Source: an uncultured delta proteobacterium (GTDB lineage Bacteria; Myxococcota_A; Polyangia; Polyangiales; Polyangiaceae). From it: a stretch of DNA of 64,000 bases. Shown here piece after piece: positions 9,910-18,184 of this stretch (positions are counted from its first letter, which is position 1; the number at the start of each line of letters is the position of its first letter). The notes under the pieces are model-generated. The model saw only the letters and a program-made list of their open reading frames with translations. It was not told where the DNA came from and searched no databases. Where the stretch lies: assembly GCA_903892415.1 (NCBI GenBank), contig CAITIQ010000179.1, positions 1 to 64,000 of the forward strand, given 5' to 3'. Made by a program: the position numbers and the translations under genes.

Positions 9910-12900
9910 TCATAGCTCGCCATTATCACACGGGGTCACAACGTTGAGCACGTTGGGCCCCAGCTCGCTGGCGATGAGCCATGCCCGCTCGGCCGGTAAG
10001 CGTTGGGCCTGCAAGAAGGGCCACGGTCCGCTGAGCAATCGCGCTCCGTCTTTGCCGACGAGGGCGCACTCGAGCGGCGATAGCTTCAGCTCGCGGCCGA
10101 GCGCCGAGCGACCGCTCACCAGAAGTTCCAGCGCCTCTTCGCTCGCCGCAGGCTCGTTCGCCGCCTCGCCCTCGTCTCGCGGGAGCGGAAGCCTTTGGTG
10201 CGTTACTTCTCCGCCGTGCGCGCTACGCAGCTCGAGCCCGCCTGGCGCAAAACCCACAGCGAGCAGCTCGCCCTCGAAGCGCAACTCGCCCAAGGGGCGC
10301 AGGTCTTTGGCGGCAAAGACGCTTACGCTGCGATCGGCGCAGACGGCGGCGAGCAGGCGCTCGTCGTGCGAATGATGCAGCGAGCTGACGCTGGCCGCGA
10401 GCGTGACCGAACCGAGTTCGCGCGTCCCGAGCACGCTCCAAAGCCGAAGCGTGAAGTCGCGAGACCCCGACACCAAAAGCCCGCTGGTCGCGAGCACCAA
10501 CGCGCTGGTGATGGCCGCGCCATGCCCTTGGAAGGCGGCGGAGCGACGCAGCCCCTCGGGCGTTCGTCGGAACAGCGCCAGCTGGCCGTCCTGCGCGCCC
10601 GCCACCAGCATGCGGCTGGTCAAAGCCAGAGCCGTTACGCTCGTATCGAAGGCGCGTTCACGCAGCTTGCTGCGACCATCGGCGCGCTGAAAGAGCTCGA
10701 GTCGCCCATCGTGATAACCGAGGGCGTATTCGTCCCCACGCGGCGCAATCGCCATGCAGTTGATGCGCCTGCTGGGCTGCTCGGCTTCGCTCGCTTGTTG
10801 GTTTGCGATCTCATGTGCGCGCGCGGTTCGATCGGTGCCTGCGCTCCAAAGCGTCTGCTTTGGGCCGAAGGCCAAGCTGTTGATCCAACCTTCGTGAGCA
10901 ACGAAGGAGTGCGTATTCGGCGCGACGCTCACGAGGTGCACCTTCCCGCTGCTGCCCGCACAAGCGATGCGCGCTGCTTGCGGGTCGAAGCTCGCGGCAA
11001 AAAGATGCTCGCTCGGGAAGCTCAGTTCGCTGCGGAGTTCGAGCCGTGGCGCGGCTGCGCTGGAGCTCGTCGCAAGCCGCTGCAAAACGCCATCGTGCCG
11101 TGCGATCAGCCATTCGCCCGCGTGCCTTTCCACGGCCCAGACGCTGCCCTCGAGCTGCGGCTCCAAGCGCTCATGCGCCGTCTCTCCCTCGCGAAAGTTC
11201 GAGCTCGAGGCGAACAGGCTGAGACCGCCGCGTGAGCAGCCGACGAGCAGCAGCCCGAGGTCGAGCGCAAGGTAGGTGATTTCGGCGTGGGCCTGACCCT
11301 GCCAAAGCAGCTCGCGGCTCGGCGAGTAGACGCGCACACAACCATTGCGCGCGCCTGTCGCGAGGTCGCCTTCGGGCGAGTAGGCGACTCCCCAAACCGG
11401 AGCGTCATGAGCGAGCTGCGCGATCCGTTCGCCGCTGCCAGCGTCCAGCAGCACCACGTGCTCATCGGTCCCGCACGCGAGCGTTCGGCCGTCGGGCGAA
11501 AACGCGACCGTCAGCGCCCTGCGCGAAGTGAGCGTGGTGCAGTCGAGCTCGGCGCCCGTGTTGGCGTCCCAACGTCGCAGTGTGCCGTCCGCGGAGCAGG
11601 TGGCGACGGTGCGCCCATCCGGGCTCACGGCCAGGCTCAACACCTCGGCGCGGTGGCCACGTAGGATCAGCGCTGGCCGGCCTGCTCGAGCTTGGTCGCG
11701 AGCTTGCGCGCGTAGCCACGGCCGAGCGCCGCTCGGGCCTTCGAGCCCTTCGAGCTGCAGCACGCTGCGCAGCGCTTCGGGCCGTTCGGCCAGGAGCGCG
11801 CCATGACGTCGCATGGCGTCGAAGCGCGCGGATTCGAGCAGCGCCAAATCGGCGAGCACCTCCGGAAGCATCCCAGCTTGCAGCCGCGCTTCGATCCCGT
11901 CGGCGTCCTCTGCGAGCGCGCGGGCCTCTGCTTTGGCCCCGGCCTGCCACAGATGGCGTACGTGATGTCGCTGCGCATAGTCGCCCTGCGTTCGCGCGCA
12001 CATCGCTGCAAACGCCTGGTGCATGCGACGCACGCCAGCTTCGCCGAGCACGCTCCCTTGCAGGAATTCGGCGAATCCGCCGTGCCAAAGTCGCAGCTCC
12101 CCAAGCTCGCTGCGCTCGAGCGCGGCGCTGAGCGCTTCGAGCGCGATGCGACAGTCTTGAAGGCTAGCCGCCTCGAGTTCGAGCTCGGCCAGCACAAGCT
12201 GCACGCGCTCCAGCCGAATGGGCTCTGCTGCGAGCGCGAGCACCTCGGCGAGCCGTTGGCTGAGTTCACCTCCTGCGCGCCGAGCTTCGAGCAGCAGCCC
12301 CTCGAACAGCGCCTCACTCGAGGCTGCCACAGCGGCCTGAGAGAAGTCGTCTGCACGCGCCCATTGCGTCAAACTTCGGTCCACGAGCAGCGGGCTACCG
12401 CCGGTCGTTTCGTGCAGTTGCGCGAGCTGTTCCACGCTTGGCTTGCGGGCTCGCGCGGAGAAGCGGTCCGCGGCCACGAGCTCGGTTTCGCTGCGCGAGA
12501 AGGGCGGCAACGCAAGCTCGAACAGGTTGGGCAGGCGCATGCGCAGGCTGGTCAGCAGCGAGAGCAGCGGTCGAGCCGAGAGCACGAACAGCGCGCGTGG
12601 CGGCAGATAGGCGGGCAGGAAGGAGAGCGCTCGTTGCACATCGTCGAGCTCATCGAGCCCGTCGAGTACGAGCACGACCTGCTCCCGCTCCTGGCCCAAC
12701 AATTCCAACGCCTGCACGAGCTCGTTCTTGAGGTCGTCGGCGGAGGCCGAGGCAAGCAGCTCGTACGCGTCCGAGCTGAACGGACGCGACGTCTTGGCCA
12801 AGGTCTGTCGGATCAGCGACGCGACGAAGCGCTGCGGCTCCTTGTGACTCTTCACGAAGTGAAAGGGCGCATCGCAGAGCCTCGAAAGTTCGGCGAGCAG

Positions 12901-13074
12901 CGCCGACTTGCCCGAGCCGAGGCCTCCGAGCACTGCGGCGTAGCCTGTGCGAGGCGCAGCCTCGGGCTCGCGCAGCAACGTCGCCAGGACCTGCTCACGC
13001 CCGCGGAATCGGGCCAAATGGGCGTCGCGCTCGGCTCGCGCTTGCGGCAGTGCCTGATCGTTCTTTTGCGTCAC
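9910..13074 (-). CDS. STAND/NACHT-type NTPase with C-terminal WD40 repeats
   Basis: Walker A GGLGSGKSALLAEL, Walker B VVLVLDGLDELDD, then repeated LRGHRAEVLSLAVSPDGRTVATCSADGTLRRWD-type WD40 units. Likely GTG start at 13074 (V/MTQKNDQALPQARAERD); upstream part of the ORF looks non-coding. Confidence 0.8.
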   Translation of the reverse strand: MTQKNDQALPQARAERDAHLARFRGREQVLATLLREPEAAPRTGYAAVLGGLGSGKSALLAELSRLCDAPFHFVKSHKEPQRFVASLIRQTLAKTSRPFSSDAYELLASASADDLKNELVQALELLGQEREQVVLVLDGLDELDDVQRALSFLPAYLPPRALFVLSARPLLSLLTSLRMRLPNLFELALPPFSRSETELVAADRFSARARKPSVEQLAQLHETTGGSPLLVDRSLTQWARADDFSQAAVAASSEALFEGLLLEARRAGGELSQRLAEVLALAAEPIRLERVQLVLAELELEAASLQDCRIALEALSAALERSELGELRLWHGGFAEFLQGSVLGEAGVRRMHQAFAAMCARTQGDYAQRHHVRHLWQAGAKAEARALAEDADGIEARLQAGMLPEVLADLALLESARFDAMRRHGALLAERPEALRSVLQLEGLEGPSGARPWLRAQARDQARAGRPALILRGHRAEVLSLAVSPDGRTVATCSADGTLRRWDANTGAELDCTTLTSRRALTVAFSPDGRTLACGTDEHVVLLDAGSGERIAQLAHDAPVWGVAYSPEGDLATGARNGCVRVYSPSRELLWQGQAHAEITYLALDLGLLLVGCSRGGLSLFASSSNFREGETAHERLEPQLEGSVWAVERHAGEWLIARHDGVLQRLATSSSAAAPRLELRSELSFPSEHLFAASFDPQAARIACAGSSGKVHLVSVAPNTHSFVAHEGWINSLAFGPKQTLWSAGTDRTARAHEIANQQASEAEQPSRRINCMAIAPRGDEYALGYHDGRLELFQRADGRSKLRERAFDTSVTALALTSRMLVAGAQDGQLALFRRTPEGLRRSAAFQGHGAAITSALVLATSGLLVSGSRDFTLRLWSVLGTRELGSVTLAASVSSLHHSHDERLLAAVCADRSVSVFAAKDLRPLGELRFEGELLAVGFAPGGLELRSAHGGEVTHQRLPLPRDEGEAANEPAASEEALELLVSGRSALGRELKLSPLECALVGKDGARLLSGPWPFLQAQRLPAERAWLIASELGPNVLNVVTPCDNGEL

Positions 13075-13179
13075 CCTGCGAGTGAACGGGGCCGTGCGAG
13101 GTTCGTCAACCTTCGCCGCACCTGCGCGTAGGGGGCGGTCAGTTGGCCGGATCGCGATCGGCGTGCTAGCGCAAGGAGC

Positions 13180-14079
13180 ATGTACCGCCGTTCTGTGATG
13201 TTTGCAGCGCTGGCTGGGCTGTTCGGCCTTTCGTTTGCGGGCATCGCCGAGGGCGCCCCGGAGGAGAACCCTCCGCCCGGGTCGATGGTGGAGCTGCATC
13301 CCAAGAGCGCGCCCTTCCCGACGAAGGACAGCACCTACAAGGACGACACCGTCCTGGCCTTCATCCCCGAGCACTTCAACTTCCCCGCCAACGGCAAGGT
13401 GGACGTGATCGTCCACTTCCACGGTCACAAGGGCACCGCTCACCGGGCGATTCGCGGCCACATGCTTCGTGAGCAGCTCAACAAGAGCAAGCAGAACGCC
13501 ATTCTGGTCGTGCCGCAGGGCCCGGTGATGGCCTCCGACGGTGACTTCGGCAAGTTGATGCGGAAGAACGGCCTCTCCAAGCTGCTGAACGAGGTGCTCG
13601 GCTCGCTCGCCAAGGACAAGAAGCTCGGCGGCAGCGGCAAGCCCAAGCTCGGCCGCGTGATCGCTTCGGCGCACTCGGGCGGCTATCGCGCTGCGGCGAT
13701 GGCCATCAAACACGGCGGCGTGGACCTGCGTGAGGTCTACCTGTTTGACGCGCTGTACGGCGAGCTCGAGCAGTTTGAGGCGTTCGCAGCCAAAAAGAAG
13801 AAGCTCGTCAGCTACTTCGTCGGCGGGGAGCCGATGACCAACAGCCTGGCCCTAGCCGATACCCTGAAGGGCAGGGGAGTGAAGGTCCTGGTGGAGAGCG
13901 GCGACGTCCGGCTCGACCGCGAGGACCTCGTGAAGGGAAAAGCCTTGTTCCTGCGCGGTCGGGCCAGCCACGGCACGGCGACGTTTGAAGAAGGCGCGCT
14001 GCGAGACTGCCTATTGGCCAGCTGCCTCAAAGGCAACGGCACCAAAGAATGGCATCAGCAGAAAGACAAGAAGCGCTAG
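13180..14079 (+). CDS. Secreted alpha/beta-hydrolase-like protein
   Basis: Signal peptide MYRRSVMFAALAGLFGLSFAGIAEGA; VDVIVHFHGHKGTAHRAIRG; nucleophile-elbow-like SAHSGGYRAAA. Confidence 0.65.
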   Translation: MYRRSVMFAALAGLFGLSFAGIAEGAPEENPPPGSMVELHPKSAPFPTKDSTYKDDTVLAFIPEHFNFPANGKVDVIVHFHGHKGTAHRAIRGHMLREQLNKSKQNAILVVPQGPVMASDGDFGKLMRKNGLSKLLNEVLGSLAKDKKLGGSGKPKLGRVIASAHSGGYRAAAMAIKHGGVDLREVYLFDALYGELEQFEAFAAKKKKLVSYFVGGEPMTNSLALADTLKGRGVKVLVESGDVRLDREDLVKGKALFLRGRASHGTATFEEGALRDCLLASCLKGNGTKEWHQQKDKKR

Positions 14080-16461: not shown

Positions 16462-17004
16462 ATGGCGCACACGATCGAAGTAGCGAAGTCCGGGCGAGCA
16501 GCCTGTCGTAGCTGTCGAAAGCCGATTCCCAAAGGGGAGCTGCGCTTCGGTGAAGAGACCGTCAACGCCTTCGCCGAAGGCGACATGACCTATCGCTGGC
16601 ATCACCTCAAGTGCGCCGCGTCCAAGCTCAGCGCCGAGCTGCGTGAGGGGCTGAGCGCCTTCGCTGGGGAGGTGCCGGAGCGCGAGGAGATCGAGGCGCT
16701 GATGGCGAAGGCCGACGCGGCAAAGCCACCGCCCTTTCCGCACGCCGACAAAGCGCCGACCGGCCGGGCCAAATGTCTCGGTTGCAGCGAGAGCCTGCCG
16801 AAGGGCGCTCTGCGCGTAGTGATCGAGCGCGAGATCGAGCGCGGCATGTCGGTAACCAAGGGCGCCGGCTACCTCCATCCGAAGTGTGCGGCCGGCTACG
16901 TTGAAAGCCAAGGCGGCTCGCATGAAGAGCTCACGACCGGGCTTCGCCAGAACACCCGCGACCTGAGCGAGAGCGAGCTCGACCAGCTCTTTGCTGAGGT
17001 CTAG
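16462..17004 (+). CDS. Protein with two tandem PARP-type zinc fingers
   Basis: Finger 1: HTIEVAKSGRAACRSCRKPIPKGELRFGEE...YRWHHLKCAA (CxxC...HxxC). Finger 2: GRAKCLGCSESLPKGALRVVIE...GYLHPKCAAGYV (CxxC...HxxC). Matches the eukaryotic PARP1 ZnF pattern AKSGRASCxxCxxxIPKxxLR. Confidence 0.82.
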   Translation: MAHTIEVAKSGRAACRSCRKPIPKGELRFGEETVNAFAEGDMTYRWHHLKCAASKLSAELREGLSAFAGEVPEREEIEALMAKADAAKPPPFPHADKAPTGRAKCLGCSESLPKGALRVVIEREIERGMSVTKGAGYLHPKCAAGYVESQGGSHEELTTGLRQNTRDLSESELDQLFAEV

Positions 17005-18184
17005 CCACTTGCCTCGCCGCCCCACGACCAACCTCGCCGCTCTCGGGACGACCATCTTCGAGACCATGTCGCGGCTCGCTGAAGCCAGCGGCGCCATCAA
17101 TCTCGGGCAGGGCTTTCCCGATGAAGGTGGGCCAGAGGGCGTGATCGCCGAGGCCGTGCGCACCCTGCGCGAGGCCAGCAATCAATACCCACCGATGGCC
17201 GGGCTGCTTGCGCTGCGTTCGGCGATAGCGCGGCACGAGCTGCATTATTACGGCCTTGAACGGGACCCAGCCACGGAGGTGCTCGTGACCTCCGGCGCCA
17301 CCGAGGCCCTCGCGGCCACGTTGCTTACCTTGGTATCCCCGGGTGATGAGGTATTGGTCTTCGAGCCGGTCTACGACTGCTATCTGCCAATGATTCAGCG
17401 CGCCGGCGGAGTCGTCGTCCCGGTGCGACTCGCAGCACCAGACTTTGAGCTGAGTGAAGAGCGCCTGCGCGAACGCCTGACTTCGCGGCTACGCGTCATT
17501 CTGCTCAACAATCCGCAGAACCCGTCGGGCAAAGTCTTTTCGCGCGCCGAGCTCGAGTTGATCGTGCGCGTGGCGCAGGAGCATGACGCCATCTTGGTTT
17601 GCGACGAGGTGTATGAGCACTTGGTGTTTGGGGCGCACGAACATATCCCTGCCGCCAGCCTGCCCGGCGCTCGCGACCGCACCCTGAAGATCGGCTCGGC
17701 AGGGAAGGTCTTCTCGATGACCGGGTGGAAGGTCGGCTGGGTGACCGGGCCCGCCGAGCTCGTCTCGCTCGTCGCGCGAGCTCATCAGTATCTGACCTTC
17801 ACCACTCCACCCAATCTGCAAGCGGCGGTCGCCTGGGGGCTCGATCACGAGCGCGCTTGGATCGGCGAACTCACCCGTGCGCTCGAGGACAAGCGCGATC
17901 GGCTCGCTGCGGGCCTGACTTCACTTGGGTTCAGCGTGCTTCCGAGCGCGGGCACCTACTTCTTGAACCTCGATCTTTCAGCCTCCGAGTGGGCCCAGCG
18001 CGACGAGGCCTTCGCTCGCCATTTGACCGAGCAGCTCAAGGTCGCCGCCATTCCGCTGCGGTCGTTCTACGTCGAGTCACCGTGCTGCGACTTGGTGCGC
18101 TTCTGTTTCGCCAAGAAGCACGACGTCCTGCAGGCGGCGCTTGGGCGGCTCAGCACGGCGGTTGATGCGAACGGCCGCCCGTGA
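16991..18184 (+). CDS. PLP-dependent aminotransferase class I/II (methionine/kynurenine aminotransferase-like)
   Basis: AINLGQGFPDEGGPEGVI, LLNNPQNPSGKVFSRAEL, VCDEVYEHLVF, KIGSAGKVFSMTGWKVGWVTGP. Exact start uncertain. Confidence 0.9.
   Translation: MLRSSHLPRRPTTNLAALGTTIFETMSRLAEASGAINLGQGFPDEGGPEGVIAEAVRTLREASNQYPPMAGLLALRSAIARHELHYYGLERDPATEVLVTSGATEALAATLLTLVSPGDEVLVFEPVYDCYLPMIQRAGGVVVPVRLAAPDFELSEERLRERLTSRLRVILLNNPQNPSGKVFSRAELELIVRVAQEHDAILVCDEVYEHLVFGAHEHIPAASLPGARDRTLKIGSAGKVFSMTGWKVGWVTGPAELVSLVARAHQYLTFTTPPNLQAAVAWGLDHERAWIGELTRALEDKRDRLAAGLTSLGFSVLPSAGTYFLNLDLSASEWAQRDEAFARHLTEQLKVAAIPLRSFYVESPCCDLVRFCFAKKHDVLQAALGRLSTAVDANGRP

Follow-up and report, generated by a model that had tools for sequence, protein, structure and literature searches.

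PARP-type zinc fingers are regarded as a eukaryotic means of sensing breaks, linked to PARP1, DNA ligase III (LIG3) and plant enzymes. What, then, might two such fingers do in a bacterial protein of only 180 residues that carries no catalytic domain? The question is raised by a gene located in the window, i.e., the whole stretch of 64,000 nucleotides from an uncultured member of the Polyangiaceae that was analysed here (contig CAITIQ010000179.1). A survey of bacterial PARPs from 2014 described mainly WGR-PARP architectures and linked bacterial PARPs to horizontal transfer (PMC4245714), and in the open literature (most subscription papers lie outside this scope) no dedicated paper on bacterial zf-PARP proteins was found. 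Judged against that literature, what is new at the level of sequence is that a known domain occurs in bacteria as a tandem pair with no catalytic part. It is proposed, with a probability of about 0.62, that the protein is a stand-alone binder of strand breaks or an adaptor, which would act by occupancy, since no catalytic domain is present. The "minimal nick sensor or adaptor" of the original prediction appears to be the best-supported reading.

The dN/dS ratio against four relatives is 0.20-0.22, which establishes that the gene is real and constrained, being under purifying selection. Since, in addition, the protein aligns along its length with about 25 homologues found in other genomes, the two-finger match, as judged by alignment, is far beyond chance. 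The HMM search that had been proposed as a check was significant: against Pfam PF00645 the whole protein scores 80.6 bits (gathering cut-off 39.3) in two stretches, as expected of two tandem PARP-type fingers in a stand-alone protein, and finger 2 taken alone lies below this whole-protein cut-off (27.3 vs 39.3 bits). PF00645 is the sole Pfam family in the protein, so that the ADP-ribosyltransferase domain is absent as predicted. NCBIfam and PADLOC searches of the protein returned no match, and PHROGs gave two weak matches only, both to families of unknown function. The gene is the one zf-PARP locus in its own 10.85-Mb genome. Its parts are listed in Table 1.

Table 1. Positions in the window of the zf-PARP gene and of the segments of its product.
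Feature	Position	Strand	Characteristics
Stand-alone tandem zf-PARP protein, 180 aa	16462..17004	+	ATG to TAG; PF00645 E 1.5e-22 in two stretches; dN/dS about 0.2
Finger 1, residues 6-64	16477..16653	+	Zn ligands C15, C18, H48, C51; putative grip R12; second invariant R28; putative stacking aromatic F37; LIG3-like; 55.5 bits
Helical linker between fingers	16654..16749	+	Helix 74-87, PPPFPHADKAP segment; AlphaFold secondary structure
Finger 2, residues about 97-156	16750..16929	+	Zn ligands C105, C108, H139, C142; putative grip R102; second invariant R118; PARP1-F1-like; 27.3 bits
C-terminal helical tail	16921..17001	+	Helices 154-164 and 170-179 (AlphaFold)

All eight CxxC...HxxC zinc ligands are present, in agreement with the claim that they are intact in both halves. 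The motif that had been quoted for both, KSGRAxCxxCxxxIPKGxLR...HxxC, is exact in finger 1, which carries KSGRAACRSCRKPIPKGELR, but finger 2 has only a related form of it (PTGRAKCLGCSESLPKGALR). The C-terminal end is conserved in near relatives as well (NTRxLSExELDxLFAEV-like). The AlphaFold2 model, built from three sequences, has a mean pLDDT of 83.8 and a pTM of 0.60, and the orientation of one finger to the other in it is not reliable. When the model was compared with the PDB by Foldseek, the first match was the PARP1 N-terminus on nicked DNA (9mi8; 3.7e-11), which answers the proposed comparison with PARP1 F1/F2, then F1F2 (2n8a; 9e-10), followed by single PARP1 fingers and the LIG3 ZnF, with nothing else at E 0.001. 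Foldseek probability of the predicted model is 1.00 to PARP1 F1, F2, F1F2 and the LIG3 ZnF, with TMt of 0.4-0.63 for predicted single fingers and a whole-length TM to PARP1 of 0.42. Among viral structures (BFVD) the best matches are stand-alone medusavirus proteins, which likewise have zf-PARP without an enzyme (about 220-250 aa) but come from eukaryotic giant viruses and show 24-26% identity over 126-148 alignment columns (E 2.7e-7 to 2e-5).

How close is the pair to its eukaryotic counterparts? PDB sequence matches of the protein are PARP1 and DNA ligase III only, and a profile of 24 relatives run against solved proteins scored 79.6 bits with PARP1 F1F2 and 53.7 bits with the LIG3 ZnF, with none outside these two. 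By profile, finger 1 is nearest to the LIG3 ZnF (55.8 bits, ahead of PARP1 F1 with 51.5 and F2 with 47.5) and finger 2 to PARP1 F1 (41.2 bits; F2 34.0, LIG3 24.6), a comparison made with few eukaryotic sequences and a short alignment. Like PARP1 F1-F2 (PF00645; PDB 9mi8, 2n8a, 4av1), the protein has tandem fingers, CxxC...HxxC ligands, equivalents of R18/R122 and F44 and the same predicted fold; unlike PARP1, it is without Zn3, BRCT, WGR, HD and ART, while its linker and helical tail are different, identity across the pair is about 20-23% and finger 1 is nearer to LIG3. The N-terminal zinc finger of LIG3 (PDB 1uw0), described as an initial nick sensor (PMC11952658), is the nearest to finger 1 (43% identity; RxG..VxNxF..GDM..WxHxKC), yet in LIG3 a single finger is fused to a ligase, whereas here there are two fingers and, within the 180 residues, PF00645 only and no ATP-dependent ligase core.

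In PARP1, R18 (Zn1) and R122 (Zn2) provide the grip on the phosphate backbone and F44 stacks on the exposed base (PMC8150716). Their alignment equivalents are R12, R102 and F37, the last match being approximate, with a loop of variable length around F37. All 27 proteins of an alignment carry R12, R28, R102 and R118, with either F or Y at position 37, and 26 of them keep the zinc ligands; at further loci of the order the contact arginines agree, with a single exception (R102K in one). On the basis of these alignments, the PARP1 contacts with a DNA break are conserved at residue level in both fingers.

Break binding is what homology and residue conservation together would predict. The small cytoplasmic protein would bind strand breaks, whether nicks, gaps or ends, regardless of sequence, each finger gripping the phosphate backbone by its conserved arginine (R12, R102), as do PARP1 F1F2 and the DNA ligase III ZnF, and the hydrophobic loop of finger 1 (F37) packing on the base pair exposed at the break. 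The finger pair may clamp both sides of a nick, so that the break is marked or shielded by occupancy and could then be handed to repair enzymes via the helical tail or via other proteins; the adaptor role and the repair partner are steps that we infer.

The survey of Myxococcota for finger number and neighbours, suggested together with the original prediction, showed zf-PARP in this phylum to be mostly a stand-alone two-finger protein and yielded no conserved neighbours. A scan of genome contigs gave just two close relatives (L032 and L033). Since the gene is patchy (zf-PARP in 32 of 379 sampled Myxococcota genomes), it is not part of essential core repair. A two-finger profile matched in 54 of the 184 genomes of the order, most matches spanning both fingers. 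In a tree of 27 proteins, family f26 stays together and family f1 is split over two well-supported subfamilies, which fits an old duplication or transfer with losses.

Do the fingers have to recognise breaks at all? They might serve some purpose other than repair, e.g., nucleoid organisation or transcription, by binding a nucleic acid structure or a different partner without being break-specific. For the LIG3 ZnF, binding to the intact nucleosome, a target without a break, is known as well (PMC11952658), and the fingers are only weakly basic in many homologues. Here each finger alone has a net charge of +4, and because of the helical parts the full-length chain is slightly acidic (-2, pI 6.3); several relatives are clearly acidic, a charge that speaks against the break-binder reading. 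Such a role also fits the gene surroundings, since no conserved repair neighbour was found in zf-PARP neighbourhoods. Against it, few positions apart from the zinc ligands are as conserved as the break-contact arginines and the base-stacking aromatic, and the fold of the predicted model matches break-bound PARP1, so that a role away from breaks, although the strongest of the alternatives, is rather improbable, at about one chance in five.

The neighbourhoods are uninformative in other respects. In about 60 of them no conserved functional partner was found, not even in comparison with a genome of the same genus; widely shared neighbour families look promiscuous and a few genes are common inside one genus only. 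No LexA-like box was found upstream of the gene. An overlap with the start of an aminotransferase gene had been reported, but it arises only from the mechanical longest-ORF start (TTG 16991); an in-frame TTG at 17009 lies 4 nt past the TAG. This TTG is presumably the real start, as it keeps the N-terminus expected of class I aminotransferases and removes the overlap. The aminotransferase was missing from all other zf-PARP neighbourhoods tested, and the linkage, together with any functional meaning of the overlap, was rejected as incidental. Also near the gene, at 9910-13713 on the minus strand of the window, is a frame of 1267 aa whose architecture is STAND-like, with WD40 repeats next to an ATPase of the AAA/NACHT type.

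Both zf-PARP and WGR are present in PARP1 itself, which makes the exchange of these two DNA-binding modules on common bodies in bacteria the main new point. The bodies of 12 multidomain zf-PARP proteins include DUF4132, HEAT, Ank, LRR-like, DUF3553 and TIGR02996 (Pfam, NCBIfam), and in 7 of the 12 the non-finger body has BLASTP alignments to proteins with WGR in place of the fingers, with E down to 2e-43 (DUF4132 type), 1e-14 (L035 type) and 2e-14 (SMI1-like region). The combination of WGR and DUF4132 was already known (PMC11674859). Bacterial WGR proteins (MolR type, WGR-DUF4132, WGR-TIGR02996) thus share non-finger bodies with the multidomain zf-PARP proteins, the two modules appearing to occupy the same slot, though WGR is a different domain. 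The 180-aa protein has no such body, so that the exchange would support its role indirectly. Co-occurrence was rejected as evidence: WGR is found in 22/32 zf-PARP genomes vs 66/347 others (p 1e-8), but zf-PARP genomes are larger (median 9.0 vs 5.7 Mb within class), and once genome size is taken into account the association within class is no longer significant (logit z 1.1), which explains the raw figure. A conserved catalysis-free two-finger protein in a bacterial order and the exchange with WGR suggest that ADP-ribosylation is not required for the sensing module to work, and may offer a minimal system for studying break recognition apart from PARP catalysis. It is tentatively suggested, as a possibility less likely than the strand-break binder itself, that myxobacteria have a modular strand-break sensing network made of PARP1 parts (zf-PARP pairs, WGR) without ADP-ribosylation, in which stand-alone finger pairs and WGR pairs would be adaptors and the modules would be swapped onto common effector bodies (DUF4132, LRR/TIGR02996, SMI1-like).

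The fusions of zf-PARP to Ank, LRR-like, DUF4132/HEAT and SMI1-like bodies have another possible meaning, namely that the fingers belong to a conflict or stress module in which they would detect broken DNA and activate partners, as is conceivable for the Ank, LRR-like and DUF4132 fusions. In Deinococcus, genes of a DUF4132 protein and a WGR protein are strongly upregulated on DdrO depletion (PMC8533742). However, the stand-alone protein is without a PADLOC match, tblastn against phages and plasmids gave no match for the gene and no conserved defence neighbourhood was found, which makes this reading unlikely, more so than a non-repair role.

The least probable alternative, and a very improbable one, is that the protein belongs to a split PARP, as its DNA-binding half, and activates an ADP-ribosyltransferase encoded elsewhere in the genome, since PF00644, the PARP catalytic domain, is absent from the protein (it is thus no clade 1 PARP enzyme) and was detected neither in its own genome nor in 29 of the 32 zf-PARP genomes, although a transferase that has diverged very far, or one encoded in the 7% that the assembly lacks (completeness 93%), could escape the search and the genome overlap is weakly positive (3/32 vs 8/347, Fisher p 0.057). 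The PF00644 search works in the phylum, as 11 of 379 Myxococcota genomes were positive; in the three zf-PARP genomes concerned the match is on other contigs than zf-PARP.

Several further loci deserve mention. In the genome of the strand-break binder candidate itself, on another contig, a frame that encodes ATP-dependent DNA ligase domains and, by a home-made profile, a WGR-like C-terminus (L072:31-1704; G000:C342) directly precedes a 218-aa protein of two WGR domains, i.e., the other PARP1 break-binding module, likewise doubled and catalysis-free. The 924-aa protein L067:6844-9618 (-) combines ankyrin repeats and a C-terminal pair of zf-PARP fingers with an SMI1-like region that is also found in a WGR protein. 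In L035:7528-10734 (+) and L062:362-3214 (-) zf-PARP fingers are fused to a long C-terminal body without a Pfam family, the end of which matches the WGR protein L128. Single-finger proteins of about 470-490 aa (L058:7267-8685 (-), L068:8175-9647 (+), L069:8446-9882 (+)) share a body of unknown family, belong to one bacterial family (f4) and occur in several copies in some genomes. Finally, in a close homologue (L029:1076-1624 (-), G213:C79), from a genome in which a PARP catalytic gene is present too, each finger retains a single zinc ligand and the other three are replaced (C18T, H48K, C51A; C108T, H139R, C142A), the sole such case among the stand-alone proteins examined. The four conserved arginines and the stacking aromatic are kept in this homologue, which looks like a protein turned zinc-free.
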